Source: Actinophytocola sp.
GTDB taxonomy: Bacteria; Actinomycetota; Actinomycetes; Mycobacteriales; Pseudonocardiaceae
Assembly (NCBI GenBank): GCA_009377395.1
Contig: WHUB01000007.1
Span: 13,371-77,370 of the forward strand
Length of the DNA stretch: 64,000 nt
Direction of reading: 5' to 3'
In this document: positions 1,192-17,646 of the stretch, in pieces
Numbering within the stretch: position 1 is the stretch's first letter
Layout of the letters: the number at the start of each line of letters is the position of its first letter
Translations under genes and position numbers: made by a program
Notes under the pieces: generated by a model
Told to the model about the DNA's origin: nothing
Databases searched by the model: none
Seen by the model: only the letters and a program-made list of their open reading frames with translations

Positions 1192-1351
1192 CGGCGGCCT
1201 CCACTTCGACGAGGTACACGGCAAGAATCGCACCGGGCGTGACTCACGGCCACCCTCCGTTCGCACGGGCACCCGCTCTCCACCACGGTGAGCGGCGTGG
1301 CGGCACCTATCCGATCGGACAGGGTCTTCTACTCACTCCGAAGGATGTGCC

Positions 1352-1366
1352 GCCCGTCACACGGGC
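1352..1366. promoter_or_regulatory. Inverted repeat upstream of the dehydrogenase/two-component operon
   Basis: GCCCGT-CAC-ACGGGC is a perfect 6-bp inverted repeat with a 3-base spacer, about 54 bases before the GTG of the alcohol dehydrogenase. A TCCGATCGGA palindrome lies about 40 bases further upstream. Either could bind the response regulator encoded two genes downstream. There is no direct evidence beyond symmetry and position. Confidence 0.35.
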
Positions 1367-1419
1367 ATTACCCTGGTGGGGTTCTGGCCGCGACACCGAA
1401 CAGACCGAGGAGTGGTCCT

Positions 1420-4122: not shown

Positions 4123-4793
4123 ACATGCGGGAACGGGCCGTGCTGGTACGGCCACGGGAGCGGGAGCTGACGATCGTCCTCGTCGACGACCATGCGATCG
4201 TGCGGCAGGGGCTGCGGTCCATTTTGGAGCGTGAGGACGACATGTGCGTCGTGGGGGAGGCGACGACGGCGGCGGAGGCCCGCGCGGTGATCGAGCGGGT
4301 CCGGCCGGACATCGTGCTGCTCGACCTCAAGCTGTCGACCGGATCCGACACCGAGGGGCTCGAGGTGTGCTCCGAGCTGACCGAGCGATACCCGGACATC
4401 GGGGTGCTGGTGCTGACGACGTTCCTCGACGACGCGCTCGTGCTCGAGGCGATCCACCGGGGCGCCAAGGGCTATGTGATCAAGGACGTCGACACCAGCG
4501 GCCTGGTGTCCTCGATCAGGGCGGTGGCGCGCAACGAGAGCGCGTTCGACTCCCGGTCGGCGTCGGTGATGGTGCGTTCCATCCGCACCGCGCCGGACGA
4601 GCCGACGCTGACCGAGCGGGAGCAGAACGTGCTCGAACTGCTCGCGCACGGCATGAGCAACCGGGACATCGGCCGCAGGCTGTTCATCTCCGAGACCACC
4701 GTGAAGTTCCACGTCCGCAACATCATGCGCAAGCTCTCCGCGTCGAGCCGGGCGGAGGCGGTCTACGAGGCGAGCAAGATGGGGCTGATCTAG
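4119..4793 (+). CDS. LuxR/NarL-type response regulator (MnoR/MadR-like)
   Basis: DNA-binding response regulator, 224 residues. The receiver domain spans about residues 17-135 with the acidic pair in VLVDDH, phospho-acceptor Asp69 in IVLLDLK, Thr in VLTTF and Lys in YVIKD. The C-terminal LuxR helix-turn-helix (about 158-220) contains LTEREQNVLELLAHGMSN. It overlaps the kinase stop by ATGA and has AGGAGGG upstream, so the two are certainly a pair. Targets are likely the operon it sits in and perhaps the methanol dehydrogenase or mft genes. It is followed at once by a strong bidirectional terminator. Confidence 0.88.
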   Translation: MNMRERAVLVRPRERELTIVLVDDHAIVRQGLRSILEREDDMCVVGEATTAAEARAVIERVRPDIVLLDLKLSTGSDTEGLEVCSELTERYPDIGVLVLTTFLDDALVLEAIHRGAKGYVIKDVDTSGLVSSIRAVARNESAFDSRSASVMVRSIRTAPDEPTLTEREQNVLELLAHGMSNRDIGRRLFISETTVKFHVRNIMRKLSASSRAEAVYEASKMGLI

Positions 4794-4825: not shown

Positions 4826-5473
4826 TCATCGCACCACTGGTGCGCCGAGGCGCAGCCCGGCGCCGCCGGTGGCGAGCGAGGTGACGTGGAAGAACAGATA
4901 GGCGCCGACGCCGACGAACGAGAACACCACGACGCCCGCCGCGGTCTGCATGGTCGCCGACCCGGTCACCGTCGCGGCGAGCACCAGCGCCAGTGACAGC
5001 GTGATCAGGCCGAACAGCACCGTGAAGGCAAGTGGAAGCCGCAGCGTGGCCAGCGTGAGCAGACTGATCGTCGTCAGCCATGCGATGAGGAACAGCTCCT
5101 GGGTCGCGACGGTCGACTCGGCCGGCACGCCGAACCAGCCGTGTGTCAGCCCGAGGACCAGCGCGGCATAGCTGAGCCAGAATCCAGTGAACACCCCGAA
5201 GATGGCGGCGACCGCGCTCTGGCCGAGCGCCGCGGCCCAGACCGCCGCGATCAGCTGCCCGACGCCGGTGGCGACGAGGATGATGGCGATGGGCGCGCCC
5301 ACCGCTTCGGCGGGCACGTAGCCGACAAGCGTCAGGCCGAGTGCGATGGCGCCGACGAGAAAGGTCGGCACGCCGACCAGCGCCGGATCGCCTGCCAGCG
5401 GGCCCGTCGGGCTCGGCGCTGGTTCTCCGGCGGTGTCGGTCGGTTCCAATTCGGTCTGTGCGTGGGTTGGCAT
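4826..5473 (-). CDS. GPR1/FUN34/YaaH (SatP) family acetate-type transporter
   Basis: Six-helix membrane protein of the AceTr family, 215 residues, which moves acetate, succinate or similar small carboxylates. GDPALVGVPTF near the start of helix 1 replaces the canonical NPAPLGL-type motif, and FGVFTGFWLSYAA matches the conserved central segment. I chose the ATG at 5473, with GGAAGGAGC upstream; the frame is open to 5524. The hydrophilic N terminus of about 35 residues is rich in Pro, Glu and Thr. It is convergent with the two-component system. Next to alcohol dehydrogenases it could handle the acid end product of alcohol oxidation; that link is inference. The degenerate motif leaves the substrate open. 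Confidence 0.82.
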   Translation of the reverse strand: MPTHAQTELEPTDTAGEPAPSPTGPLAGDPALVGVPTFLVGAIALGLTLVGYVPAEAVGAPIAIILVATGVGQLIAAVWAAALGQSAVAAIFGVFTGFWLSYAALVLGLTHGWFGVPAESTVATQELFLIAWLTTISLLTLATLRLPLAFTVLFGLITLSLALVLAATVTGSATMQTAAGVVVFSFVGVGAYLFFHVTSLATGGAGLRLGAPVVR

Positions 5474-5597
5474 GAGCGCTCCTTCCGCTGCTGACGGGAT
5501 GGCTACCTGAGCAGCGTGGCGCACCTCACGTCTCCCGGTCGCCGCGCAGTAAGGCGCTGCTGGCCTCGTCTTTCGGTCAGGCGGCTGCTAGCCGTGC

Positions 5598-6176: not shown

Positions 6177-6311
6177 GTGCTCCCTGCTTCACTCGGGTAA
6201 GCCAGCAGCTGGGATCCTGCCATCGAGATACCGGGCGTAAGGTGCGAAAGCCGCATTAGGGCGGCTATCGTCGTGCGAACTGCCGATTTGACCCGACGGA
6301 TGCTCCGTTGA

Positions 6312-7211
6312 TCAAGCAGTCGTGTCTATGACCAGCCAGCCGCCGTGGTGTTCGGTGACGGAGAACGGCAGCCCTGTGGCCATGCCGATGTCGGTGAGCA
6401 CCGACCGGTCGAACGTGCGTATGTGGCCGTAGATCTCCGCCGGTTCCTCCTCGTACGGCACCGCGATGACCACCCGGTTCGACGCCAGCCGCACCGCCTC
6501 GGCGACCACCCTGTGGCCGTCGACGGGGTCGAGATGTTCCAGCAGGTGCAGCATCGTGACGGTGTCCACCGACCGGTTCGGCAGCGGCACGCTCGCCGCG
6601 TCGCAGGCCAGCGTCTCGACCGGCACGTGCCGCGCCCGGGCCATCGTCGCCAGCAGCCGCATGCTCGCGGGCACCACGTCCGACGCGATCACGGAGGTGT
6701 CGCCGCGTTCGGCCAGCAGCAGCGGGAAGAACCCGAAGCATGACCCGAGATCGAGCACGCTGCCGGGCGGGACGAGCCGGCGCGCCCGCTCGTACACCGG
6801 GACCATGCCGGCGATGACCGAGCCCGGCTCGTCGTCCTCCACTGTGGCCTGCCGGATCTTGGCGAGGGTGTTGGCGTAGAAAGTACCCCACGCCAGCGTC
6901 GGGTCGCTGATGGTGGAGCGAACGATGCCGGCGACGACCCGCTCGAAGACGACGTTGCCGGTCAGCCAGCCCGGGCCGAACAGCTCGTCGTGCAGCAGCC
7001 CGACCAGGTCGTTGTCCAGCTGGTCGGGGCGCAGCCGGTGGCTCAGCTCGATCCGCCGATTCCGCTTGCGCAGCAGGAAATGCGCCGTGACGGCGATGGT
7101 CTCGCCGCGACCGGGCGGCCGCTCGCCCCGGCCGAGCCGGAGCACGTGCACCAGATCGTCCTGGTAATGCCGGTCCGCCGTCGGCGCCAGCGGATCGAGC
7201 GCGGCGCTCAT
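6312..7211 (-). CDS. mftM: Mycofactocin oligosaccharide methyltransferase MftM
   Basis: SAM-dependent class I methyltransferase, 299 residues. Motif I is VLDLGSCFGFFPLLLAERG at about 158-176. The acidic motif II is VIASDVVPAS, and DTVTMLHLLEHLDP is the post-II region. In mycobacteria MftM adds a 2-O-methyl group to a glucose of the cofactor's oligosaccharide tail. The assignment here rests on the methyltransferase fold, the matching length and position in the mycofactocin/methanol dehydrogenase gene string. The ATG at 7211 overlaps the stop of the VWA gene by ATGA, so it is the last gene of that operon. A different small-molecule methyltransferase cannot be fully excluded. Confidence 0.75.
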   Translation of the reverse strand: MSAALDPLAPTADRHYQDDLVHVLRLGRGERPPGRGETIAVTAHFLLRKRNRRIELSHRLRPDQLDNDLVGLLHDELFGPGWLTGNVVFERVVAGIVRSTISDPTLAWGTFYANTLAKIRQATVEDDEPGSVIAGMVPVYERARRLVPPGSVLDLGSCFGFFPLLLAERGDTSVIASDVVPASMRLLATMARARHVPVETLACDAASVPLPNRSVDTVTMLHLLEHLDPVDGHRVVAEAVRLASNRVVIAVPYEEEPAEIYGHIRTFDRSVLTDIGMATGLPFSVTEHHGGWLVIDTTA

Positions 7212-8737
7212 CGGCCGACGATCTCGGTGGTCAGGTCCCGGGCGGTGCGTTCCAGACCGGACAGGTCGCGCACCACCCGCACCCGGTCGCAATACTCCGC
7301 GTACTCCGGCAGGTCGCAGCCGCCGAGGCCCCAGGAGTAGCGCGGCTCCGGGGTGAGCCAGATGGTCTCGCGCGCCCGGCGGGTCAGCTCGGCGAACCCC
7401 GCCAGGTTGGGGTCGTTGCCGTTGCCCCTGCCGTCGCCGAGCACGAGCAGCGTCGTGCGACGGGTGACCGCCGACGCGTACTCGCCGACGAACTCGCCGA
7501 TCGCGGCGCCGTAGTCAGAGTTGGCGTCGACGTCGAGCACGTCGCCGCCGAAGATCAGCCCGAGCGCGCGTTCGGCGGGATGGTCGGCGAACAGCTCGGT
7601 GATCTCGGCGACGTCCGCGACGAACGCGAACGACCGCACCTGCGCGAACAGGTCCTGCAGGCCGTGCACCAGGTGCAGCGTGAACCGGGCGGTGGCCCGC
7701 ACCGACAGGCTGACGTCCGCGAGCACCACCAGCCGTGGCTTGTCCTCGGTGCGCCGCACCGTGACCGGGGCGAACGGCACGCCGTCGTAGCGCATGTTGC
7801 GGCGCATCGTCCGGCCCGGATCGACCCGGCCCACCGGCGAGACCCGCCTGCGGTGGGTGAGCGCGCCCCGCAGGCTTCGCGCCAGCCTGCGCAACGACTC
7901 CTCGAGGTCGGCGCGCTCCCGCTCGGCCACACTGTCCACAGTGGCCACGCGACGCTCCTGCGACTCCACGGCCCGCTCCTCGAGCTCGAGCAGCGCCTCG
8001 AGGTGCCGCTTGAGCGCCTGCGGCAGGTTCGCCAGCACACCGGCCAGCCGCTGACGGAGCGCGCTGGCGTCGGACTCGTCACCGGTCTGGTCCTCGTCGG
8101 ACTGATCGTTGAGCCAGCCAAGCAGCGCCTCGGTCTCGGCGATGGTCAGCTCGGCGTCGACCGTGGTACCGGTGTCGCCCGCCAGCTTGCCGGGCTGGCC
8201 CGCGCCGTGCAGCCGCTCGGTGTCGAGCTGCACTCGATAGCCCTCGCTTCCATTGATGACCTGGTTGTCCTTGGAGAACACGATCTCGTCGGTCAGCGAG
8301 GCGATGTCGATCTTGTTGGCCTCCTGGTGCAGGTTGTAGCGCTGCGCCAGGTCCTCCTGGTCGAAGTACTCCCGGATGCTCGATGGCTTGCCGTGCTCGT
8401 GGCCCTGCTGCGGCGTCTCGCTCGGCTCGTCGGAGAGCGTGAACGACTCCAGCTCGCCGGTGTCGGACAGGTCGTCGTGCTCATGGCTGTGGCCGTGGCC
8501 GTGCTCGTCGCCACCTACCTTGACCAGCGCGAAGAAGGCGTCGAAGACCTCCTCGAACGCCGGTTCGTCGCGGCGGTCCTTGACCAGCGCGACCCGCAGC
8601 GCCGACTTCAGCAGCTGCTTGTCGGCGAGCACACCCGGCTGCGCGGCGCAGCGCAGCGCGTCGAGCACCTCGGGCACCGACACCCGCACCCCGTACAGCC
8701 GCAGCAGCCGGACGAACCGGTGGATCGTGGCCTCCAC
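7208..8737 (-). CDS. CoxE-like von Willebrand factor A protein with His-rich segment
   Basis: 509-residue cytoplasmic VWA protein that works with MoxR-type ATPases in maturing metalloenzymes. The N-terminal 75 residues are helical. A histidine-rich segment, GHGHSHEHDD, follows at about 80-90, then a long acidic central region with a coiled coil (LEALLELEERAVESQERR). The VWA domain fills the last 190 residues; its metal-ion-dependent adhesion motif is DVSLSV. It starts at a GTG nine bases after the MoxR stop and ends overlapping mftM. Family knowledge says such pairs remodel or metallate a client. The client here is most likely the adjacent methanol dehydrogenase (inference). Confidence 0.82.
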   Translation of the reverse strand: MEATIHRFVRLLRLYGVRVSVPEVLDALRCAAQPGVLADKQLLKSALRVALVKDRRDEPAFEEVFDAFFALVKVGGDEHGHGHSHEHDDLSDTGELESFTLSDEPSETPQQGHEHGKPSSIREYFDQEDLAQRYNLHQEANKIDIASLTDEIVFSKDNQVINGSEGYRVQLDTERLHGAGQPGKLAGDTGTTVDAELTIAETEALLGWLNDQSDEDQTGDESDASALRQRLAGVLANLPQALKRHLEALLELEERAVESQERRVATVDSVAERERADLEESLRRLARSLRGALTHRRRVSPVGRVDPGRTMRRNMRYDGVPFAPVTVRRTEDKPRLVVLADVSLSVRATARFTLHLVHGLQDLFAQVRSFAFVADVAEITELFADHPAERALGLIFGGDVLDVDANSDYGAAIGEFVGEYASAVTRRTTLLVLGDGRGNGNDPNLAGFAELTRRARETIWLTPEPRYSWGLGGCDLPEYAEYCDRVRVVRDLSGLERTARDLTTEIVGR

Positions 8738-8746
8738 CGTCAGCCC

Positions 8747-9892
8747 CTACAGCGCCCGGCGCCGCGCGAACGACCGGCTGCCCTGGCCCGCGTTCACCGC
8801 CGACCGCTGTGGCTTTCCGGACGGCGTGCCGTAGTAGCCCTCGTCGAATCGGCCGGGGGAGTCCTTGGCCGCCCGCGCCGCCGCACCATCCACATCGGAG
8901 TCGCCGTGATCGTGGTGGTGATGGTGGTGGTGCCCGTGGTGATGGCCGTTCGGATCCGGCACTTCTGCGTTCGGATCCACCAGCCGGGGCAGCACTTCGA
9001 CCGCCCGGTCGACGTCCTTGTCGTACTTGACTACCACCGACACCGTGTCCGACAACAGCTGCGCCGACAGCTCGTCCGCGCCGAGCACCGCCAGCGTGCG
9101 CGCCCAGTCGATGGTCTCCGAGATGCTGGGCGCCTTGCGCAGCTCCAGGTCACGCAGCCCGCGCACGATGTGCACCAGCTGTTCGGCGAGCGCGTCCGGC
9201 AGCCCGGTCTGTTTGCTGCGGACGATCTCCAGCTCCCGCTCGGCCGAGGGGTAGTCGAGAAAGAGATGCAGGCAGCGGCGTTTCAGCGCGGCCGCGAGGT
9301 CACGGGTGTTGTTCGAGGTCAGCACGACGTAGGGCGGCGCGGCCGCCGCAAACGTGCCGACCTCGGGGATGGAGATCTGGTACTCGCCGAGCATCTCCAG
9401 CAGCACGGCCTCCAGCGCCTCGTCGGCGCGGTCCACCTCGTCGATGAGCAGCACCGCCGGTTCCGGCGAGCGCACCGCCTCCAGCAACGGGCGCGGGGCG
9501 AGGAACCGCTCGGAGAAGAACACGCTCTCCTGCGCCCCGATGCGCTCGACGGCGTCGTGCAGCGTGGTCGCGTCCGCGACCACCTCGCCGATCTTGTCCC
9601 GCAGCATCTGGGTGTAGAGCAGCTGCTTGCCGTAGTCCCAGTCGTACAGCGCCTTGGTCTCGTCCTGGCCCTCGTAGCACTGCAACCGGATCAGCCTGCG
9701 CCCGGTCGCGGCGGCGAGCACCTTGGCCAGCTCGGTCTTGCCGACCCCGGCCGGCCCCTCGATCAGCACCGGCTTGTCGAGCCGGGTCTGCAGGAAGACC
9801 GTCGTCGCCAGCCGCGTGTCGGTGATGTAACCCTGCTCGGCCAGCGCGGTGCCGACGGCGTCGACGGAGTCGAACGGGCTGGGTGCGCTCAT
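8747..9892 (-). CDS. MoxR-family AAA+ ATPase with His-rich C-terminal tail
   Basis: 381-residue AAA+ ATPase of the MoxR family. Walker A is EGPAGVGKTE at about 38-47, Walker B is AVLLIDEVDRADE, sensor 1 is VLTSNNTRDL, and the arginine finger region is AAALKRRCLH. The tail carries NGHHHGHHHHHHHDHGDSD, a clear metal-binding stretch not usual in MoxR proteins. I chose the ATG at 9892, with GAAGGGAC upstream, because residues encoded further upstream do not resemble protein. It lies 59 bases after the methanol dehydrogenase gene and just before the VWA gene. It probably forms a two-component chaperone with the VWA protein. Confidence 0.88.
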   Translation of the reverse strand: MSAPSPFDSVDAVGTALAEQGYITDTRLATTVFLQTRLDKPVLIEGPAGVGKTELAKVLAAATGRRLIRLQCYEGQDETKALYDWDYGKQLLYTQMLRDKIGEVVADATTLHDAVERIGAQESVFFSERFLAPRPLLEAVRSPEPAVLLIDEVDRADEALEAVLLEMLGEYQISIPEVGTFAAAAPPYVVLTSNNTRDLAAALKRRCLHLFLDYPSAERELEIVRSKQTGLPDALAEQLVHIVRGLRDLELRKAPSISETIDWARTLAVLGADELSAQLLSDTVSVVVKYDKDVDRAVEVLPRLVDPNAEVPDPNGHHHGHHHHHHHDHGDSDVDGAAARAAKDSPGRFDEGYYGTPSGKPQRSAVNAGQGSRSFARRRAL

Positions 9893-9951
9893 GGATGTCC
9901 CTTCGGGCGTGGGCCGAGGGTGGCCACCGCGGCCACCCTCGGCGGTCCTAG

Positions 9952-11244
9952 TCAGCTGAGCAGGTCGTCCAGGTCGCCGTTGATGCTGTGATCCACGACC
10001 GGCCGGACGGTCTCGAAGGTGCACTCCTTGGCGTTGCCCGGGGTGCAGGCGTCACCGAGCACGTGGTTCGTGATGCGGTCGACGTCGGCGTCGTCGCCCT
10101 TGATCACCTTGGCGTTCTCGTAGAACTTCGTCGGCCCCTGGCCGAGCCGGTTCTTCGAGTAGGTGTCCTGCTTGACGTCGATGAACCGCTCCGGGATGCC
10201 GACATCACGCAGCAGCCTGATCGCGGCGGCGAGCGCGGCGTCGGCCGCCTGGACGTCGGTCATGCCGTGGGTGTCGACCCCCATCACGGCGGCCATCTCG
10301 GCGAACCGCTTGTACGCCACCGGCATGTTGAACGCCCAGACGCGGGGCAGCGCGATCGCGTTGTTGAGGCCGTGGTGGGTGTCGTAGAACGCGCTCACCG
10401 CGTGCGAGATCGAGTGGATGATGCCCAGCCCGCCGGAGTTGAACGCCTGCGCGGCGATGTACTGTGCGTACATCATGCCCTCGCGGCCGGGCAGGTCGGC
10501 CGGGTTCCAGGTGGCCTGCCGCAGGTTCTCGGCGGTCAGCTTGACCGCGCGCAGCGCGTTGCCCAGCGAGGGCTCGAAGTTCAGCCGGGACACGTACGGC
10601 TCGGAGGCGTGCGCCAGCACGTCGAAGCCGCACTGGGCGGTGTAGTCGATCGGGCAGTCGAAGTACAGCACCGGGTCGTCGACCGCCAACGAGGTGACCG
10701 AGGCGTCGTCGAACGCCACGTACTTGTGCGGGTTGTCCGGGTCGGTGGTGGTGTCGGTGATGACGTACGCCCAGGACGTCTCCGAGCCGGTGCCCGCCGT
10801 GGTCGACACCGCGATGTGCGGCGGGTTGTTCGGGTTCTCCGACTTGTTGAAGCCCTCGAAGTCGTTGACGTTGCGGCCGTCGTGCGCGACCGAGATCCGG
10901 GCGCCCTTGCAGGCGTCGTGGGACGAGCCACCGCCGATGGAGACGAAGCTGTCGCACTTGTTCTCCTGGTAGAGCGACACCGCGTCCATCACGTTGTAGT
11001 CCTTGGGATTGGACTCGACCTTGTCGTAGACCACCACGTCCAGCCCGTGGTACTTCATCGACTCGACGATCTTGTGCACGGTGTCGGAACCGCGCAGCCC
11101 GGTGGTCATCACGAGGGTCTTCGTGAACCCGAGGTTCTTCGCCTCGGGGCCGATCATCTCGTGCGCGCCAGGGCCCATCAGGGCGCGTGGGAACGGGTGG
11201 AACTCCTTGATCGGAAACGGTTTCAGTAGCTCGTCAACCTGCAT
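9952..11244 (-). CDS. mdo: NDMA-dependent methanol dehydrogenase (nicotinoprotein, iron-type ADH)
   Basis: 430-residue group III alcohol dehydrogenase of the Mdo/Mno type, which oxidises methanol and other primary alcohols with tightly bound NAD(P)H. Electrons leave through mycofactocin rather than free NAD+; in vitro, nitrosodimethylaniline (NDMA) replaces the natural acceptor. Visible features are SIGGGSSHDACKGAR (nucleotide loop), STTAGTGSETSW, the metal ligands in CGFDVLAHASEPYVS and IHSISHAVSAFYDTHHGLNN, and the conserved N terminus LLKPFPIKEFHPFPRALMGPGAHE. The start ATG at 11244 has GAAAGGG upstream. It precedes moxR and vwa and follows mftE across a 144-base gap that probably holds its own promoter. 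Confidence 0.93.
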   Translation of the reverse strand: MQVDELLKPFPIKEFHPFPRALMGPGAHEMIGPEAKNLGFTKTLVMTTGLRGSDTVHKIVESMKYHGLDVVVYDKVESNPKDYNVMDAVSLYQENKCDSFVSIGGGSSHDACKGARISVAHDGRNVNDFEGFNKSENPNNPPHIAVSTTAGTGSETSWAYVITDTTTDPDNPHKYVAFDDASVTSLAVDDPVLYFDCPIDYTAQCGFDVLAHASEPYVSRLNFEPSLGNALRAVKLTAENLRQATWNPADLPGREGMMYAQYIAAQAFNSGGLGIIHSISHAVSAFYDTHHGLNNAIALPRVWAFNMPVAYKRFAEMAAVMGVDTHGMTDVQAADAALAAAIRLLRDVGIPERFIDVKQDTYSKNRLGQGPTKFYENAKVIKGDDADVDRITNHVLGDACTPGNAKECTFETVRPVVDHSINGDLDDLLS

Positions 11245-11388: not shown

Positions 11389-12057
11389 TCAGCCGAGCCA
11401 GCCGCGCACCCGGGCGGTCAGGTCGGCGGTCCAGCGGTCGAGGATCCGCTCGCCCTCAGCGGCCGTGGCGCCGGTCGGGTCGCCGAGGACGCCGTTCGGG
11501 CTGACGGCGGCGACGCCGTGCCGGGTGAGGGTGTCGATGAGGTCTCCGATGGGCTCGGCGGCACCGGGTTCGGCCCGGTCCATGGCGACATCCGCCGGGC
11601 GCAGGTGGAGCATGACGGAGGTTTCGGTGCGCCCAGCGTGGCTGTCGTCGGCGGGCCCGGATGGCGACCAGGCGAGCACCCGGCGGCCCTCCCCGCGGAG
11701 TTGTCGGACTGCTTCGGTGAGCGGACGCAGGTTGCCGCCGTGGCCGTTGACGAGCACCGTCCCGGCGAACCGGTCGGCGGAGCGCACCAGCTCGACGAGC
11801 GCCGTCCGCAGCGCCTGCTGCCCGATGGACAGCGTGCCGTCGAAGCCGGCGTGCTCGCCGCTGGAGCCGTAGGGAATGGCCGGTGCGACCAGCACGCCGG
11901 GCACGCGGCGCGCGAGCCGGTGGCAGAGCTCGGTGGCGATGGTGGTGTCGGTGTCGAGCGGCAGGTGCGGGCCGTGCTGCTCGGTCGCGCCGAGTGGGAC
12001 GGCGAGCACGGTGGCCCGGCCCGCGAGGTCCGGGGAGCGCAGGCCGCCGAGGGTCAT
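11389..12057 (-). CDS. mftE: Mycofactocin precursor peptide peptidase MftE
   Basis: Creatininase-family metallopeptidase, 222 residues, which releases the modified C-terminal Val-Tyr dipeptide from MftA. Metal ligands are Glu26, His28 and Asp37 in ATEQHGPHLPLDTD, with NGHGGN further on and TETSVMLHLRP near the C terminus. The ATG at 12057 overlaps the mftF stop by ATGA, so it is translated from the same message. It is the last biosynthetic gene before the dehydrogenase. Its position after mftF rather than directly after mftD is unusual. Confidence 0.92.
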   Translation of the reverse strand: MTLGGLRSPDLAGRATVLAVPLGATEQHGPHLPLDTDTTIATELCHRLARRVPGVLVAPAIPYGSSGEHAGFDGTLSIGQQALRTALVELVRSADRFAGTVLVNGHGGNLRPLTEAVRQLRGEGRRVLAWSPSGPADDSHAGRTETSVMLHLRPADVAMDRAEPGAAEPIGDLIDTLTRHGVAAVSPNGVLGDPTGATAAEGERILDRWTADLTARVRGWLG

Positions 12058-13418
12058 GACTGCCGGTCGGTGGCCTGCGGCAGCAGCGGTGCGGCGGTCC
12101 GATGCCTGACGCAGCCGGTGATGACGCCGGTGGAGTAGGCGAGGTCGTCGGCGAGGCGCAGTGCCAGCCAGCGGAGTCCTTTGTGGCCGGTGGCGGCCTC
12201 GATGAGGCAGGGCAGCAGGCTGGCGGCCAGCAGTCGCCTGCCGCGCTTGCTGGGCAGCAGCAGTGGCCACCAGCCGCGCCGGACGGCGGCGGCCAGCATC
12301 CCGGCGGCGGCGAGCTGGCCCTCGCCGGTGAGCGTCAGCGCGGCGCGGGCGGGAAGGCCCTTGCGTCGCAGGGTGCGCAGTAGCGGAGCGGTGCTGGCGG
12401 CGGCCACGGCGAGGCCGAGCCCGGAACGTCCGGTGGCGGCGAGCGCAGCGGCGGCGAGCGTCCAGCGGTTGGCGCGAGCACAGGGGAGCAGCCGGGGGTG
12501 GCGTGTGGCCAGTGGGGCGGCCGACGTGCCGTAGTCGTGGCGCTGCCGCAGCCAGCCCCGCAGAGTGGGACGTGGTTGGTGCCAGACGGTGGCCTCGGGC
12601 TGGTAGCGCACGGTGTGTCCGGCCGCGATGAGCCGCCAGACCAGGTCGACGTCTTCACCGAACCGCAGTGTCTCGTCGAACCCGCCGAGTGCGGCCAGTG
12701 CGTCACGGCGGGCGACCAGCGCGGCGGTCGGGACGTAGCCGACCCGGGTCATGGGCCGCACGGCGGCCGGGCCGGATCCCATGTCGAGGGCGGAACGGTC
12801 GGTCTCGTAGCCCGCGAGCGCGCCGTCGCCGGGGAGGCCGCGCACGCGGGGTGCGACGGCGGCGACGTCCGGGTCGTCGAACAGGCCGAGGATCGGGTCG
12901 AGCCAGCCGGACTCGGGAATCGTGTCGGAGTCGAGGAACGCGACCAACGCGGTGTCCGCGTGGCGCCAGCCGGTGTTGCGGGTCGCCGCCGGTCCGGCTG
13001 GGGCGCGATGCCGGTGGGTCGCGCCCAGCAGCGGGGCGGCGGAGCCGTCGTCGACCACGATCGTGGCCAGGTCGCCGGTGGCGGCCCGTAGCCGGGCCAG
13101 GCCGGTCGGGTTGTCCTTGACCGGGACCACGACGGTGACGTCGGCCGGTGTGAGGCGGCCGGTGCCGGGCAGCGGGTGGACGAGTCCGATGTGGAGCAAA
13201 CGTCGGGCGAGCGCGGTGTCCTGCGGTGCGGCACCGATCGGCTCGCCCGCGCACCACCGATCCAGCAAAGCCGCCCCCGACGCGCTGAGCCAGATGAGCC
13301 GGGTTGGAGAGCCGCCCAGCACGACGCGTCCCTCGGCGTAGTGCCGCAGCGAGGCGTCCGGCACGACCCGCCACCCCGCGAGGGCGGTGTCGTGCGGCAC
13401 CTCGGGGGAGGCGGTCAT
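12054..13418 (-). CDS. mftF: Mycofactocin glycosyltransferase MftF
   Basis: GT2-family glycosyltransferase, 454 residues, which adds the glucose tail to premycofactocin. The N-terminal 80 residues resemble a peptide-recognition domain. The GT-A core starts at VTVVVPVKDN and continues through ATIVVDDGSA, AFLDSDTIPESGW (the DXD metal site) and GGFDETLRFGEDVDLVWRL (the catalytic ED). Hydrophobic helices follow in the last 150 residues. The ATG at 13418 overlaps the SDR stop by four bases, and the stop overlaps mftE. Confidence 0.92.
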   Translation of the reverse strand: MTASPEVPHDTALAGWRVVPDASLRHYAEGRVVLGGSPTRLIWLSASGAALLDRWCAGEPIGAAPQDTALARRLLHIGLVHPLPGTGRLTPADVTVVVPVKDNPTGLARLRAATGDLATIVVDDGSAAPLLGATHRHRAPAGPAATRNTGWRHADTALVAFLDSDTIPESGWLDPILGLFDDPDVAAVAPRVRGLPGDGALAGYETDRSALDMGSGPAAVRPMTRVGYVPTAALVARRDALAALGGFDETLRFGEDVDLVWRLIAAGHTVRYQPEATVWHQPRPTLRGWLRQRHDYGTSAAPLATRHPRLLPCARANRWTLAAAALAATGRSGLGLAVAAASTAPLLRTLRRKGLPARAALTLTGEGQLAAAGMLAAAVRRGWWPLLLPSKRGRRLLAASLLPCLIEAATGHKGLRWLALRLADDLAYSTGVITGCVRHRTAAPLLPQATDRQS

Positions 13419-14200
13419 GGTGCGAAGCCGCCGTCGGCGTGGATGACGGTGCCGGTGATGGCGCTCGCGTCGGGCTGGCACAGCCAGGCCACCGTGGCGG
13501 CGACCTCGTCGGGGTCGAGCAGCCTGCCGAGCAGCTGATGCTGGGCGAAGGTGTCGGGGGAGTCGAGGTCGTAGAGGCGGGCGGTCTCGGTGAGCATGTC
13601 GGTGCGGGTGGAGCCGGGGGACACGGCGGTGGCGGTGATGCCGGTGCCGCGCAGGTCGTGGGCGAGGCCACGGACCAGCCCGACGACGGCGTGCTTGGCG
13701 GCGGTGTAGCCCGCGAGCTGGTACAGGCCGCGATGCGCGGCGGCCGAGGCGAGCGCGACGAAGCGACCGCTGCGGGGCTCGGGACGGCGCAGCAGCGCGG
13801 GGATGGCGGCGCGGGCGAGGTTGGCGATGCCGTGCACGTTGACGTCGAACAGCGCGTCCCATTCGTCGTCGCCGGTCTCCCATAACGGCGCCCCGCCCGC
13901 CATGACCGCGGCGGCGGCGACGGCGGCGTCCAGCCCGTCGAACCGGTCCTCGGCAAGCGCGACCGCGTTGCGCAGCGCGGGAAGATCCTGCACGTCGGCC
14001 ACGACCTCGGCCACCGTGCCGGGATGCTCGGCGGCGAGCGCGGCGAGCTGTTGCTTGGTGCCGAGCGGGTAGGGCACCCGGGGGTCGTCGGCGCAGCGGT
14101 CGACGGCCACCACCCGCCAGCCCGCCGTGGCGAGCCTGCGGACGGTGGCCGCGCCGATGCCGCGGGCGGCACCGGTCACGATCGCGACCGGGTGGGTCAC
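13415..14200 (-). CDS. Mycofactocin-coupled SDR oxidoreductase
   Basis: Short-chain dehydrogenase, 261 residues. VTGAARGIGA is the glycine-rich nucleotide loop, the catalytic Ser is in ALASAAAHRG and the catalytic Tyr/Lys are in YTAAKHAV. SDRs next to mft genes form a nicotinoprotein subgroup that keeps NAD(H) bound and passes electrons to mycofactocin. Membership is inferred from its insertion inside the biosynthetic operon. The start is a GTG at 14200 overlapping the mftD stop (GTGA). No separate promoter exists, so it is co-expressed with the cofactor. The natural substrate is unknown, probably a secondary alcohol or ketone. Confidence 0.87.
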   Translation of the reverse strand: MTHPVAIVTGAARGIGAATVRRLATAGWRVVAVDRCADDPRVPYPLGTKQQLAALAAEHPGTVAEVVADVQDLPALRNAVALAEDRFDGLDAAVAAAAVMAGGAPLWETGDDEWDALFDVNVHGIANLARAAIPALLRRPEPRSGRFVALASAAAHRGLYQLAGYTAAKHAVVGLVRGLAHDLRGTGITATAVSPGSTRTDMLTETARLYDLDSPDTFAQHQLLGRLLDPDEVAATVAWLCQPDASAITGTVIHADGGFAP

Positions 14201-15372
14201 GTGAGTCCTCTGTGGAATCCGTCCGGGACGACGATGTCGTCGGGGCTGAGCTCGGCCAGCGAGGAGCGGGCGAGTGCGTAGAGGGCGGAGTCGATGCCTT
14301 GCCGCAGGATTTCTAGCACGTTGTGTACGCCGCGCTCGCCGTTGGCTGCCATGCCCCACAGATAGGGCCGTCCGATCATGACGGCGTTGGCGCCGAGCGC
14401 GACGGCCTTGACGACGTCGCTGCCCCGGCGGATGCCGCCGTCGAGCAGGATCTCCAGCTGGTCACCGGCGGCGGCGGCGATCGAGGGCAGCAGCCGGATG
14501 GTGGCCGGGGTGGAGTCGAGGTTGTTGCCGCCGTGGTTGGACACCGAGATCGCGGTGGCGCCGATGTCGGCGGCGCGTTTGGCGTCGTCGGGATGGGTGA
14601 TGCCCTTGAGCAGGAAGGGCCCGTCCCACTGGCGGCGCAGCCAGGCGAGGTCGTCCCAGCTCGGTGGCGGGGTGAACATCCACTCGCCGTAGGCGCCGAA
14701 GAACGTCGGCCCACTCTCGCCCTGGGCGACCAGGTTGGGCGTGGTCAGGTCGGGCAGCTTGCCGCTGCGCAGGAACCGCGCCAGCCAGCCCGGCCGGGTG
14801 AGCACCTGCGGCGCGAACTTCGCCATGGTCTTGAGGTCGACCTTCTCCGGCAGCGGCGGGCTGCCCCAGTCGCGGGCGGTGACGAACGACCAGTCCAAAG
14901 TGACCATCAGTCCGGCCGCCCCCGCCCGCTTGGCCCGGTCGAGCCTGGCGACCATGCTGTCCTTGTCGCCGAGCCAGTAGGCCTGGAAGAACGTCTTCGG
15001 ATTCGCGGCGACGACATCCTCGATCGGCTTCGAGGCGAACGAGGACAGCCCCAGCGCGGTGCCGGAGGCGGCGGTGGCGCGGGCCACGGCGACCTCGCCG
15101 TCCGGGTCGACCGCCTGCACCCCGGTGGGAGAGCAGATCACCGGCAGCGCCAGGTCCTGGCCCATCACAGTGACGCTCTGGTCGCGCTGGGCCGGCAGGT
15201 CGGCGATGTGCGGGCGGAACCCGAGCTCGCCGAACGCGGCGACGTTGTCGTCGAGGGTGCGGCCCGACTCGGAGCCCGCCAGCAGCGCCAAGTACACCGA
15301 CTTCGGCACCCGCTTACGGGCCATCCGCTGCGCCTCGGCGACGGTTTCGAACCAGTCTTTCGTGCTCGCCAT
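14197..15372 (-). CDS. mftD: Pre-mycofactocin synthase MftD
   Basis: FMN-dependent alpha-hydroxy-acid-oxidase-like enzyme, 391 residues. It oxidatively deaminates the cyclised Val-Tyr product to give the redox-active premycofactocin. TIM-barrel flavin-binding segments are visible: CSPTGVQAVDPDGE, the catalytic SVSNHGGNNLDSTPA, and LLDGGIRRGSDVVKA followed by MIGRPYLWG. The ATG at 15372 lies 19 bases after the mftC stop. Length and all family landmarks are intact. Confidence 0.94.
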   Translation of the reverse strand: MASTKDWFETVAEAQRMARKRVPKSVYLALLAGSESGRTLDDNVAAFGELGFRPHIADLPAQRDQSVTVMGQDLALPVICSPTGVQAVDPDGEVAVARATAASGTALGLSSFASKPIEDVVAANPKTFFQAYWLGDKDSMVARLDRAKRAGAAGLMVTLDWSFVTARDWGSPPLPEKVDLKTMAKFAPQVLTRPGWLARFLRSGKLPDLTTPNLVAQGESGPTFFGAYGEWMFTPPPSWDDLAWLRRQWDGPFLLKGITHPDDAKRAADIGATAISVSNHGGNNLDSTPATIRLLPSIAAAAGDQLEILLDGGIRRGSDVVKAVALGANAVMIGRPYLWGMAANGERGVHNVLEILRQGIDSALYALARSSLAELSPDDIVVPDGFHRGLT

Positions 15373-15391
15373 GAGTGTGTTCCTTCGTGTG

Positions 15392-16561
15392 CTAGTGCAG
15401 GCCCGCGAGCGGGCTGGTGTCGCAGGCCCGGTCCGGGGTGCGCGGCGTCGGCATGCCGAGGGTGACGCGGGCGGGCCGGGCGGTGCGGGAGTGGTCCTTG
15501 TCCGGTTTCGGCGTCGCGCCGACTCCTGCCAGCGCGGGTTCGGCGTTGCCCTTGACGCACTCCGGGTCGGGCCCGTCGAGCGGCAGGCCGGTGAAGAACT
15601 TCGCCGCCATGCAGCCGCCCCGGCAGGAGTCGTACGCGACGCAGGAGGTGCAGGCGCCGCCGGTCTGCGGGCTGCGCAGCTCGGTGAACAGCTCCGAGTG
15701 CCGCCACACGTGCTCGAACCCGCCCGGGGTGCGCACGTTGCCCGCCAGGAAGGCGTCGTGGATGGCGAACGGGCAGGCGTAGACGTCGCCGACCGGGTCG
15801 ATCAGGCACACCACCCGGCCCGCGCCGCACAGGTTCAGCCCGGGCAGCGGGGTGGAGCCGAGCGCGTTGAGGTGGAAGAACGAGTCGCCGGTGAGCACGG
15901 TGTCGCCGTTGGCGAGCAGCCAGTCGTAGATCTGGCGCTGCTGCGCCTGGGTGGGGTGCAGCTCGTCCCACACGTCCGCGCCCCGCCCAGACGGCCGCAG
16001 CCGGGTGATGCGCAGCTGCGCGTCGTAGGCGTCGGCGATGGCCTTGAAGTCGTCGAGCTGGTCGACGTTCTGCCGCGTCATGACCACCGAGATCTTGAAG
16101 CCGGTGAACCCGGCGGCGGCGAGGTTGTCCATCGCGCGGATCGCCATGTCGTACGAGCCCGGCCCGCGCACGTGGTCGTTGACCTCCGGGGTGGCGCCAT
16201 CCAGCGAGATCTGGATGTCGACGTAGTCGGTGGCGGCGAGCTGTTTCGCGCGGTCGGGGGTGATGCGCACACCGTTGGTGGAGAACTTCACCCCGACCTG
16301 GTGCGCGATGGCGTAGTCGAGCAGCTCCCAGAAGTCCGGGCGCACCGTGGGCTCGCCGCCGCCGATGTTGACGTAGAAGACCTGCATCCGTTGCAGCTCG
16401 TCGATCACGGCCTTGCACTCGTCGGTCGACAGCTCGCGCGGGTCGCGGCGTCCCGAGGACGACAGGCAGTGTTCGCAGGTCAGGTTGCAGGCATAGGTCA
16501 GCTCCCAGGTGAGACAGATCGGGGCGTCGAGGCCCTCCTGGAAGTGCTCAACCAGCTTCAT
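15392..16561 (-). CDS. mftC: Mycofactocin radical SAM maturase MftC
   Basis: Radical SAM/SPASM enzyme, 389 residues. It decarboxylates the C-terminal tyrosine of MftA and then forms the Val-Tyr carbon-carbon bond. The SAM-cluster cysteines are Cys25, Cys29 and Cys32 (ACNLTCEHC), with NIGGGEPTVRPD as the SAM-binding GGE motif. The auxiliary-cluster cysteines are in NLCGAGRVVC, YACPF and CTSCVAYDSCRGGC. The ATG overlaps the end of mftB by 14 bases. The final 40 residues are Pro/Thr-rich and look disordered. Confidence 0.95.
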   Translation of the reverse strand: MKLVEHFQEGLDAPICLTWELTYACNLTCEHCLSSSGRRDPRELSTDECKAVIDELQRMQVFYVNIGGGEPTVRPDFWELLDYAIAHQVGVKFSTNGVRITPDRAKQLAATDYVDIQISLDGATPEVNDHVRGPGSYDMAIRAMDNLAAAGFTGFKISVVMTRQNVDQLDDFKAIADAYDAQLRITRLRPSGRGADVWDELHPTQAQQRQIYDWLLANGDTVLTGDSFFHLNALGSTPLPGLNLCGAGRVVCLIDPVGDVYACPFAIHDAFLAGNVRTPGGFEHVWRHSELFTELRSPQTGGACTSCVAYDSCRGGCMAAKFFTGLPLDGPDPECVKGNAEPALAGVGATPKPDKDHSRTARPARVTLGMPTPRTPDRACDTSPLAGLH

Positions 16562-16871
16562 CGGTGCCTCCTCGCGGCTGGATCATGCCCGTCGAGGCCA
16601 GACCGGCCAGGGCGTCGAGATAGTGGGGGCGCTGCGCGTCGGGCACTTCGGCGGCCGCCAGCGCGGCGGTCACGTCCGGCTGCTCGGCCAGCTCGCGCAC
16701 CACCCGCACCAGCGTCGGCGTTTTCAAAAACGACAGTCGGCGGGTGTGGAAGTCGTAGACCAGCGCGCCGAACGGCTCCGGCCGCAGCGACACCGAGGGC
16801 GCCAGCCGGTACGGCGAGGCCGGATCCAGCCCCGCCGCCTCGGCCGTCTCAGTAGACACCGCACATGCCAT
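16548..16871 (-). CDS. mftB: Mycofactocin peptide chaperone MftB
   Basis: 107-residue PqqD-like RiPP recognition protein that presents MftA to MftC. It has the RRE-type beta strands (SVSLRPEPFGALVYDFHTRRLSFLK) followed by a winged-helix segment. The start is uncertain: the ATG at 16871 has a weak GAGGA 11 bases upstream, and a GTG at 16859 would shorten it by four residues. Either start overlaps the end of mftA, so the two genes are coupled. The 3' end overlaps mftC. Confidence 0.92.
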   Translation of the reverse strand: MACAVSTETAEAAGLDPASPYRLAPSVSLRPEPFGALVYDFHTRRLSFLKTPTLVRVVRELAEQPDVTAALAAAEVPDAQRPHYLDALAGLASTGMIQPRGGTDEAG

Positions 16872-16953
16872 CGATCGACACGTCCTCGACCAGCAGGTCC
16901 TCGCCGACCTCGTCGGCGGCCTCGGTCGCTACCGTGATGTCCTCGTCGCTCAT
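16849..16953 (-). CDS. mftA: Mycofactocin precursor peptide MftA
   Basis: 34-residue ribosomal peptide that is the raw material of mycofactocin. It ends in IDGMCGVY, the invariant C terminus whose last two residues, Val33 and Tyr34, become the cofactor. The acidic leader (SDEDITVATEAADEVGEDLL) is typical of the family. The ATG at 16953 has GAGGAG eight bases upstream. It overlaps mftB at its 3' end and is read from the promoter region shared with mftR. Confidence 0.96.
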   Translation of the reverse strand: MSDEDITVATEAADEVGEDLLVEDVSIDGMCGVY

Positions 16954-17000
16954 CGCTCACTCCTCGTTGAGTTGGTGCGTGACAGTGACTGCGAGCATAA

Positions 17001-17015
17001 TGGCATCGAGTGCCA
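17001..17015. promoter_or_regulatory. Candidate MftR operator between mftA and mftR
   Basis: TGGCA-TCGAG-TGCCA is a perfect 5-bp inverted repeat with a 5-base spacer, placed centrally in the 75-base divergent gap between mftA (start 16953) and mftR (start 17029). TetR proteins commonly bind such symmetric sites and control both genes. No other symmetric element stands out in the gap. Confidence 0.5.
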
Positions 17016-17028
17016 AAATGGAAGGCCT

Positions 17029-17646
17029 ATGACCGCGAACCCGTCCGATCGCCAGCCGGGCGCCACCACAAGGAGGGGACGACGCCCCTCCACCAGCCCT
17101 CTCCAGTTGGAGGAGGTGGCGTTCGGCCTGTTCGCCAGCAAGGGCTTCGAGGCGACCACCGTCGACGACATCGCGACGGCGGCGGGCATCGGGCGCCGGA
17201 CGTTCTTCCGGTACTTCGAGTCCAAGAACGACGTCGTGTGGGGGAGTTTCGCCGAGCACCTCGACTACATGCGGCAGCGGTTCGCGGAGTGTCCGCCCGA
17301 CCAGCCGTTGATGGACGCCGTGCGCACCGTGGTCGTCGACTTCAATCGGTTCGACCCCGACGAGGTGCCGTGGCATCGCAGGCGAATGGAGCTGATCCTG
17401 CGGGTGCCCGCGCTCCAGGCGCACTCCACGCTGCGCTACGCCGCGTGGCGTGAGGTAGTCGCGGAGTTCGCGGCGCGGCGGCTGGGTATGTCGGTCGGCG
17501 ATCTCGTGCCGCAGGCGCTGGCCTACGCCGCGCTCGGCGCCGCGCTGGCCGCGTACGAGCACTGGCTCGCCCACCCCGGCGAACAGCTCAGCGACATCAT
17601 CGACAGCACCATGCGCGACCTCGCGGGCGGTTTCGGGGCGCGGTGA
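17029..17646 (+). CDS. mftR: TetR-family regulator MftR
   Basis: 205-residue TetR-type repressor. The N-terminal helix-turn-helix contains FASKGFEATTVDDIATAAGIGRRTFFRYFESKND at about residues 36-70, and the C-terminal half is the ligand-binding helical domain (YAALGAALAAYEHWL). I chose the ATG at 17029, with GGAAGG upstream, rather than the open frame from 16972, which would run into the operator. It is divergent from mftA. MftR in mycobacteria represses the mft genes and responds to long-chain acyl-CoA; the same role is inferred here. Confidence 0.9.
   Translation: MTANPSDRQPGATTRRGRRPSTSPLQLEEVAFGLFASKGFEATTVDDIATAAGIGRRTFFRYFESKNDVVWGSFAEHLDYMRQRFAECPPDQPLMDAVRTVVVDFNRFDPDEVPWHRRRMELILRVPALQAHSTLRYAAWREVVAEFAARRLGMSVGDLVPQALAYAALGAALAAYEHWLAHPGEQLSDIIDSTMRDLAGGFGAR

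Follow-up and report, generated by a model that had tools for sequence, protein, structure and literature searches.

A MoxR ATPase and a VWA protein encoded beside the methanol dehydrogenase Mdo most likely form a maturation machine related to NorQD and CbbQO

The window, the whole stretch of 64,000 nucleotides of Actinophytocola sp. DNA that we analysed, carries the genes for the dehydrogenase Mdo, a MoxR-type ATPase, a VWA protein and MftM in that order, all on the minus strand. Mdo, MoxR and VWA are consecutive, with no intervening gene; the first-pass annotation had placed the MoxR and VWA genes directly behind Mdo, and the coordinates bear this out. The start of MftM overlaps the stop codon of the VWA gene. 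Immediately upstream of Mdo, the minus strand carries a mycofactocin cluster, including two open reading frames which we take to be MftA (C-terminal end IDGMCGVY) and MftB. The features are as follows.

1288-2733: second iron-type alcohol dehydrogenase (ADH)
6312..7211, minus strand: MftM, mycofactocin oligosaccharide methyltransferase (NF041255, 349 bits against a cut-off of 200)
7208..8737, minus strand: VWA protein with a C-terminal CoxE-type VWA domain (Pfam VWA_CoxE)
8393..8404, minus strand: VWA His motif 2, GHEH of GHEHGKP, residues 112-115; similar motifs occur in His-rich relatives
8471..8500, minus strand: VWA His motif 1, GHGHSHEHDD, residues 80-89
8747..9892, minus strand: MoxR-type AAA+ ATPase whose C-terminal extension bears a His tract (translation; Pfam AAA_5)
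9952..11244, minus strand: Mdo, NDMA-dependent (nicotinoprotein) methanol/alcohol dehydrogenase of the iron-type ADH fold (TIGR04266; Pfam Fe-ADH and ADH_Fe_C)
11389..16953, minus strand: mycofactocin cluster, with MftE, MftF, a mycofactocin-coupled SDR, MftD, MftC, MftB and MftA (NCBIfam for MftE, MftF, SDR, MftD and MftC)
16972..17646, plus strand: MftR, TetR-type regulator of the mycofactocin system (TIGR03968, 279 bits against a cut-off of 224.9)

A NiCoT-type nickel/cobalt transporter is also encoded near the locus in the window, as it is at 7 of the 80 loci (the best 80 of 252 relatives) that we refer to below as the named loci.

Mdo passes the model for NDMA-dependent methanol dehydrogenases, TIGR04266, with 685 bits against a cut-off of 625. 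Iron-type (group III) alcohol dehydrogenases are defined by a D-H-H-H metal-ligand motif, and by this test Mdo belongs to them: the putative ligands D208, H212, H277 and H291 are identical in all 136 aligned sequences. Mycobacterium smegmatis is described as needing Mdo to grow on ethanol (PMC6529628), and its methanol metabolism is reportedly catalysed by this enzyme (PMC11778925).

The MoxR motifs GPAGVGKTE, LLxDExDRAD, TSN and KRxC, which presumably hold the Walker A, Walker B, sensor 1 and arginine residues, are invariant in 30 aligned sequences. The ten closest solved structures to the MoxR model (pLDDT 70.3) are all NorQ or CbbQ (Z 13.1-14.9; the following rows 11.5), so that by its predicted fold the protein falls in the NorQ/CbbQ branch of AAA+ ATPases. 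It had been described as ending in a run of about ten histidines. The tract is real (HHHGHHHHHHHDH, residues 317-329, window 8906-8944, minus strand), with 11 His within 15 residues and a longest run of 7, but it is not terminal: 52 in-frame residues follow, and most of 30 aligned relatives share the last part of this tail (RSF, then RRR-like). The tract is predicted to be disordered (residues 316-336 at pLDDT under 50), and no cluster equal to it arose in 3,000 shuffles of the protein.

The VWA protein comprises an N-terminal helical region (about residues 1-70), a disordered His-bearing linker within about 76-202, further helices and a VWA domain at 333-509 that scores 108.8 bits against Pfam VWA_CoxE (PF05762; gathering score 26.4). 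Its MIDAS motif DxSxS (D341/S343/S345) is invariant in 19 of 19 sequences. The motif GHGHSHEHDD, which the first-pass annotation had read in this protein, is indeed there, and the His cluster was matched in 0.1% of 3,000 shuffles. The weak model of this protein (mean pLDDT 57.9) has a general VWA fold (Z up to 12.1, residues 333-507); NorD, a partner protein whose VWA domain sends a finger into the AAA+ pore, is absent among the 50 matches listed for it, and a PDB sequence search with the protein returned nothing meaningful.

That same annotation had named a lack of genomic association as what would refute a role of the pair in Mdo maturation; in each survey we ran, the association proved nearly one-to-one. 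Gene order was surveyed in 150 genomes (up to 9 candidates scored per genome): all 18 Mdo genes were accompanied by the pair and all 18 full-length VWA relatives stood behind Mdo. Mdo lies directly upstream at 79 of the 80 named loci (best 80 of 252), the remaining one being a 3 kb contig that ends too early. The order Mdo-MoxR-VWA also holds at 40 of 40 further loci, picked for the most part among the lower scores. Reciprocal censuses of two families, with up to 5 and 6 candidates scored per genome, gave, for the two genes, 133 and 133 genomes (132 shared) among 301, and 65 and 64 (64 shared) among 249. Pooled, this makes 196 genomes with both, 1 with Mdo only and 2 with VWA only, these three being incomplete, and the same nine genomes carry two Mdo and two VWA genes. 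The reciprocity and the matched copy numbers rule out a chance association of neighbours: the link between pair and Mdo is close to one-to-one, and its natural reading is a dedicated role in maturation or activation of Mdo. The second iron-type ADH is unlikely to be the client, since its gene is seen within the stretch read at only 37 of the 80 named loci (best 80 of 252).

The position of the pair, between the mft cluster and an MftM gene that overlaps the VWA stop codon, could also suggest a role in the service of mycofactocin itself, or of the contact that Mdo makes with it, and some of mftA-F lie within the stretch read at 53 of the 80 named loci (best 80 of 252). We consider this very improbable. 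In 14 genomes without MftC above cut-off the pair is kept beside distant Mdo-like genes: MoxR adjoins Mdo in 13, and in the 14th the contig ends before the MoxR position. The pair thus tracks the dehydrogenase rather than mycofactocin, and the proposal of a maturation step for mycofactocin dehydrogenases is partly supported: the step would belong to this dehydrogenase family and not to mycofactocin dehydrogenases as such.

Both proteins bear His-rich segments at 145 of 189 distinct loci, many of them close relatives, neither does at 41 and only one does at 3; the both-or-neither state thus applies to 186 of 189. The count omits 15 of 243 loci in which a part is missing, cut or further off. Lowering the threshold to two clustered His gives 147 both, 37 neither and 5 one only; raising it to four gives 133, 42 and 14, a distant group having short tails. 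Actinobacterial MoxR/VWA pairs do not carry such tracts as a rule: among 20 paralogous pairs with no Mdo gene in the 10 kb that were read, neither a His-rich MoxR tail nor a His-rich VWA linker was found (0/20 each). On a tree the two His traits change 8 and 6 times, never in opposite directions. Of 6 contrasts, an average of 3.5 agree in direction (p 0.125; 2 of 4 with a laxer threshold, p 0.5), but independent contrasts are scarce and some show no difference in the second trait, so the independent changes are too few for joint gain and loss to reach significance. As His-less pairs serve Mdo at 41 of 189 loci, the histidines are not the mechanistic core and look accessory. Comparison of His-rich and His-less groups within the 136 Mdo sequences found no change at the metal ligands correlated with His loss; the alignment columns that differ most between the groups are 237, 338 and 307.

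The pair is, we think, most likely a maturation machine for Mdo related to NorQD and CbbQO. We infer complex formation, Mdo as client, the identity of the metal, and metal loading as the leading action of the pair. On the model of NorQD, the VWA protein would be held by a hexamer of MoxR and would contact freshly synthesised Mdo with its metal-binding MIDAS face. Movement powered by ATP would then open or remodel the enzyme, so that its active-site metal, at D208/H212/H277/H291, becomes correctly seated, as may its tightly bound NAD(P). In many lineages the flexible His-rich segments of both partners may keep metal beside the client, combining a store and a remodelling motor in one complex. 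To this reading, of one ATP-driven machine dedicated to Mdo that seats metal and perhaps NAD(P), with His segments holding metal in many lineages, we give about an even chance. The both-or-neither His state, the absence of His from pairs without Mdo nearby, the NorQ/CbbQ-like MoxR model and the zinc response of the M. smegmatis genes given below favour the involvement of metal; the His-less pairs, the identity of the Mdo ligands across His groups, the scarcity of tree contrasts and the structural tie with CbbQ, which belongs to a Rubisco activase and not to a metal inserter, count against it. Recombinant iron-type ADHs, B. methanolicus MDH and FucO among them, have been studied with no pair of this kind. 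A stronger version we entertain tentatively: the pair would be a metal store and ATP-driven insertase in one, with His arms on both proteins that bind a metal in short supply, be it nickel, cobalt or zinc, and deliver it into Mdo. It would imply that every Mdo-type dehydrogenase needs a private insertase, and that the metal of Mdo in His-rich lineages might differ from the one currently assumed.

Metal need not be handled at all. A CbbQO-like activase would remodel Mdo so that its nicotinamide cofactor, or a nucleotide that inhibits it, is seated, exchanged or cleared, and the histidines would do no more than buffer metal. CbbQ is tied with NorQ as the nearest structure to the MoxR model, one entry being titled CbbQO-type Rubisco activase, a function that PMC13036017 also mentions; Mdo is counted among nicotinoproteins, whose cofactor is non-exchangeable (PMC3023750); and a related NAD-type methanol dehydrogenase (MDH) is described as inhibited by ADP-ribose at sub-micromolar Ki, with relief by ACT (PMC12926040). 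The existence of His-less pairs fits as well. Such an activase nevertheless leaves unexplained why the His segments are coupled at 186 of 189 loci and why all 20 of the other pairs lack them, and we judge it unlikely, if still a serious contender. A still less probable role is that of an assembly chaperone, acting in Mdo folding or oligomer building with no specific cofactor step, the His segments sensing metal to tune the ATPase: MoxR proteins are ascribed chaperone-like roles in the maturation of protein complexes (PMC3893208), and a related NAD-type MDH is a decamer (PMC8741260). Against this, the second iron-type ADH shows no pair of its own at the 37 of 80 named loci (best 80 of 252) where it occurs. 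Related decameric MDHs have, moreover, been studied without such a pair.

The corresponding operon is known, and co-regulated, in M. smegmatis (PMC6529628, PMC11303327, PMC7174638). Expression of its Mdo, AAA and 6240 genes is given in PMC7174638 as down 24-28-fold in a zur mutant and down 3-4.6-fold in excess zinc, two of the latter three values being parenthesised in the table. This zinc regulation covers Mdo itself and may be an indirect effect. Our literature search found no paper giving the pair a function. The maturation machine we favour would bear on synthetic methylotrophy, for which NDMA-type enzymes are one of three methanol dehydrogenase classes considered: the reasons against them set out in a review are their multimeric structure and their need for mycofactocin (PMC9214030), and an obligatory pair, if such it is, would add one more requirement. 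As the same enzyme is served by a MoxR/VWA machine with histidines in some lineages and without them in others, the case is also a clean system for telling the role of metal storage apart from that of the motor.

Among known systems the best family matches of both window proteins are MadB and MadC, a sister pair named by NCBI: MoxR scores 386 bits against MadB_ATPase (NF047784; cut-off 475), and the VWA protein 286 bits, in a nearly end-to-end alignment, against MadC (NF047783; cut-off 600), both below the curated cut-offs. Four MadC members over cut-off in the order survey also stand behind a MoxR and an Mdo gene, and have no His segments; one locus (L024) passes MadB, MadC and TIGR04266 together. 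We did not find a published source for the names, the literature matches to them being unrelated proteins. NorQ/NorD likewise combine a MoxR AAA+ protein with a VWA partner that has a disordered linker, their genes lying beside that of a metalloenzyme, and NorQ is the top structural match of the MoxR model (Z 14.9, rmsd 4.0, 235 aligned, 23% identity). Iron insertion depends on NorQD (PMC13036017). The authors of PMC9976466 think it unlikely that the NorQD complex takes part in delivering the iron. The NorQ/NorD client is a membrane heme-copper reductase, whereas here it would be a soluble iron-type alcohol dehydrogenase, and His-rich segments on both partners distinguish the present pair. CoxD/CoxE, in assembly of the CO dehydrogenase metal cluster, is also an AAA+ protein and a CoxE-type VWA protein acting for a metalloenzyme; CoxE is described as membrane-bound and as participating in copper supply, the copper coming through a separate protein, CoxF (PMC4240915). 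Unlike that system, with its extra copper protein, Mdo, MoxR and VWA have no further gene among them. CbbQ/CbbO belong by structure to the same MoxR branch (5c3c, Z 14.5; 6l1q, Z 13.9) and work as one pair per enzyme, but as a Rubisco activase with a different client, and they are not known to handle metals. MxaR/MoxR of PQQ methanol dehydrogenase operons is a MoxR ATPase tied to methanol oxidation, its client being an unrelated calcium/PQQ enzyme. Among nickel chaperones of the HypB/UreE type, some but not all orthologues of one maturation factor have a His-rich, metal-storing extension; these are a GTPase or a small chaperone, not a MoxR/VWA motor.

On the minus strand of the window the mycofactocin cluster is followed in turn by Mdo (NDMA-dependent methanol dehydrogenase), MoxR, VWA and MftM. 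The genes of the MoxR AAA+ ATPase and the CoxE-type VWA protein (the pair) stand directly behind Mdo, as the first-pass annotation had said, and the start of MftM overlaps the VWA stop, leaving no gap:

100-1272, divergent from the second iron-type ADH: NiCoT-type nickel/cobalt transporter (NicO)
1288-4793, plus: second iron-type ADH, histidine kinase and response regulator
4826-5524, same strand as MftM and downstream of it: GPR1/FUN34/YaaH-type transporter (Pfam PF01184)
6312-7211, minus: MftM (NF041255, 349 bits; cut-off 200)
7208-8737, minus: VWA (matches MadC, NF047783, at 286 bits, under the cut-off of 600)
8747-9892, minus: MoxR (matches MadB, NF047784, at 386 bits, under the cut-off of 475)
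9952-11244, minus: Mdo (TIGR04266, 685 bits; cut-off 625)
16953 down to 11389, minus: mycofactocin cluster (MftA to MftE and a mycofactocin-coupled SDR)

The genes at 1288-4793 resemble those of the M. smegmatis 1,3-propanediol dehydrogenase and MnoSR. At the named loci, the best-scoring 80 of 252 VWA relatives from a one-genome-per-species scan, MftM is present in the stretch read at 74, at times on the opposite strand, and the second iron-type ADH at 37; the GPR1/FUN34/YaaH-type transporter is seen again at some Amycolatopsis and Streptomyces loci of this set.

Linkage of the pair to Mdo was examined at several depths. The 150 genomes of the window's order hold 18 full-length VWA relatives (NF047783, at least 244 bits) in 17 genomes, and 18 Mdo genes over the TIGR04266 cut-off in the same 17; Mdo, MoxR and VWA lie on one strand at all 18 order-survey loci (17 fetched loci and the window). 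Mdo-like genes (E ≤ 1e-130) occur in 23 of 396 genomes of the phylum, 19 of them outside the order set. The whole triad is present at 15 of these 19 loci, one of the VWA genes being cut by a contig end; three contigs end before the full pair could be seen; and in the last (G275) MoxR adjoins Mdo while the VWA gene is on a different contig. No uncut Mdo neighbourhood lacking MoxR was found among these 19 genomes. At 79 of the named loci (best 80 of 252), Mdo, 85-95% identical to that of the window, is directly upstream; the 80th lies on a contig of 3 kb, which ends too early. The window order also holds at 40 of 40 further loci, most of them picked from among the lower scorers in two families, with one irregular reading frame each in L266, L316 and L317.

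The co-occurrence survey proposed in the first-pass annotation gave a near one-to-one relation, counted per genome from lists matched by eye, adjacency being read at the named and fetched loci. In family one, a VWA relative (E ≤ 1e-75) and Mdo are each present in 133 of 301 genomes, 132 of them common; the exceptions are G789 (VWA only, 74% complete) and G742 (Mdo only, 75% complete). For the family to which the window belongs the figures are 65 and 64 of 249 (63 Mdo over the cut-off), 64 being common and the exception, G1028 (VWA only), being 84% complete. Mdo is doubled in five genomes of the 301 and four of the 249, and in each of these so is VWA; G853 additionally shows one VWA gene as two pieces. 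Such linkage gives good support to the view that the pair is very probably a dedicated machine for maturation or activation of Mdo.

The doubled genomes are G081, G713, G731, G739, G811, G881, G933, G948 and G1005; both sets were read in G081 (L022, L037), one being of the His-less Mad type and one His-rich. L077 (G222) has two VWA genes in tandem, and L127, among the best 80 of 252, two tandem Mdo-MoxR-VWA sets. The triad also occurs on plasmids of M. chubuense and M. dioxanotrophicus, whose records annotate only mdo, a MoxR family ATPase and a VWA domain-containing protein. On these plasmids (L194, M. dioxanotrophicus; L195, M. chubuense NBB4) an RDD family protein gene follows the triad, and the NBB4 triad is near methane/ammonia monooxygenase-like genes.

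The pair had been proposed as a maturation step for mycofactocin dehydrogenases. In a set of 30 genomes carrying Mdo or an Mdo-like gene, MftC is over its cut-off in 15 and not in the other 15, weaker matches, which control genomes give as well, being left out of the count. Fourteen of the latter carry distant Mdo-like enzymes (48-53% identity to Mdo, under the TIGR04266 cut-off), and MoxR adjoins the gene in 13, the contig of the 14th ending first; good assemblies among the genomes without MftC over cut-off include G339 (2 contigs, 97%), G390 and G359 (both 100%). The idea of a mycofactocin device is accordingly not supported: the pair tracks the Mdo family and persists in genomes without MftC over cut-off. 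The genomes of L079-L092 (f32) have the pair and Mdo-like enzymes whose identity to Mdo is about 50%, with no MftC over cut-off.

MoxR had been described as ending in about ten histidines. The tract is there (11 His within 15 residues) but is followed by 52 more residues; in the VWA linker the reported GHGHSHEHDD is joined by GHEH 32 residues further on. Clusters of this kind arose in none of 3,000 shuffles for MoxR and in 0.1% of 3,000 for VWA; chance, given the composition of each protein, does not explain them. Of the 243 loci collected, 228 could be used, and 189 of them are distinct: with at least three clustered His, 145 have segments in both proteins, 41 in neither and three (L083, L090, L093) in the linker only, the one-protein class being 5 at a threshold of two clustered His and 14 at four. 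Twenty MoxR-VWA pairs from places without Mdo showed no His-rich tail, no His-rich linker and no long MoxR extension. A 97-row tree of MoxR core and VWA end shows 8 changes of the MoxR trait and 6 of the VWA trait. Six independent contrasts give, on average, 3.5 in which the traits differ in the same direction, none with opposite directions and 2.5 without a difference (median p 0.125); with a laxer tail threshold 2 of 4 agree in direction (p 0.5). Co-change is not significant; agreement of the two proteins in the trait is much the commoner state, but a large part of it is common ancestry, and not every Mdo needs the histidines. The putative metal ligands of Mdo are identical in 136 of 136 aligned sequences, whether the pair is His-rich or His-less. 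After the tract come a KDxPGRxxxxYYG-like motif and, at the end, RSFxxRRR (A6 columns 401-464; window ~8750-8905); since both recur, in some His-less MoxR as well, the extension may do more than carry histidines.

As to the metal, PMC12926040 names zinc, cobalt and manganese as metals that an iron-type ADH can bind, and a table in PMC8741260 lists the C. necator enzyme with nickel. The window has a NiCoT transporter close to the locus, as do 7 of the named loci (best 80 of 252), all Amycolatopsis, in two arrangements; this is not a strong pointer to the Mdo metal. PMC11303327 and PMC7174638 already describe the M. smegmatis mno operon, MSMEG_6242-6238 (Mdo/Mno, an AAA ATPase, 6241, a hypothetical protein, 6240, 1,3-propanediol dehydrogenase, 6239, and MnoS); by position and annotation 6240 and 6241 fit as the putative VWA and MoxR counterparts. 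Ethanol is reported to raise the cluster 6236-6242 in the wild type (PMC6529628), and mutants in mftC and mftD to contain more of the 6242 and 6241 proteins (PMC8406134). Genes 6240-6242 are down 24-28-fold when zur is mutated and 3-4.6-fold in excess zinc, the 6240 and 6241 values in the latter case being parenthesised (PMC7174638); this zinc regulation points, not strongly, away from NiCoT-type metals.

The main text of Haft 2011 mentions neither ATPase nor MoxR nor von Willebrand, and MoxR is absent from the MftG paper too; a literature search, with subscription papers mostly outside its reach, found no paper giving the pair a function. The NCBI names MadB and MadC suggest that a sister system has been described by someone.

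The predicted MoxR model (mean pLDDT 70.3) is nearest among solved structures to NorQ and CbbQ jointly (Z 13.1-14.9; next AAA+ 11.5). That of VWA (mean pLDDT 57.9) has the VWA fold over residues ~333-509, its His-bearing linker being a low-confidence region. Nitric oxide reductase needs NorQD to receive its iron, and twisting and stretching of a NorD linker is the proposed mode of action (PMC13036017). CbbQ is part of a Rubisco activase and equally near, so that remodelling of a cofactor or inhibitor of Mdo stays the main rival. The first-pass proposal that the pair loads or activates Mdo is well supported, on genomic grounds, as to a dedicated maturation or activation role; metal loading is the leading reading of its action, at roughly even chances. 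An earlier NorQD paper considers the complex itself unlikely to take part in iron delivery (PMC9976466); in the present pair the His arms hint that metal delivery and remodelling may be combined. MoxR/VWA maturation machines are known already; what is new here is the client, Mdo, and the often His-rich arms.
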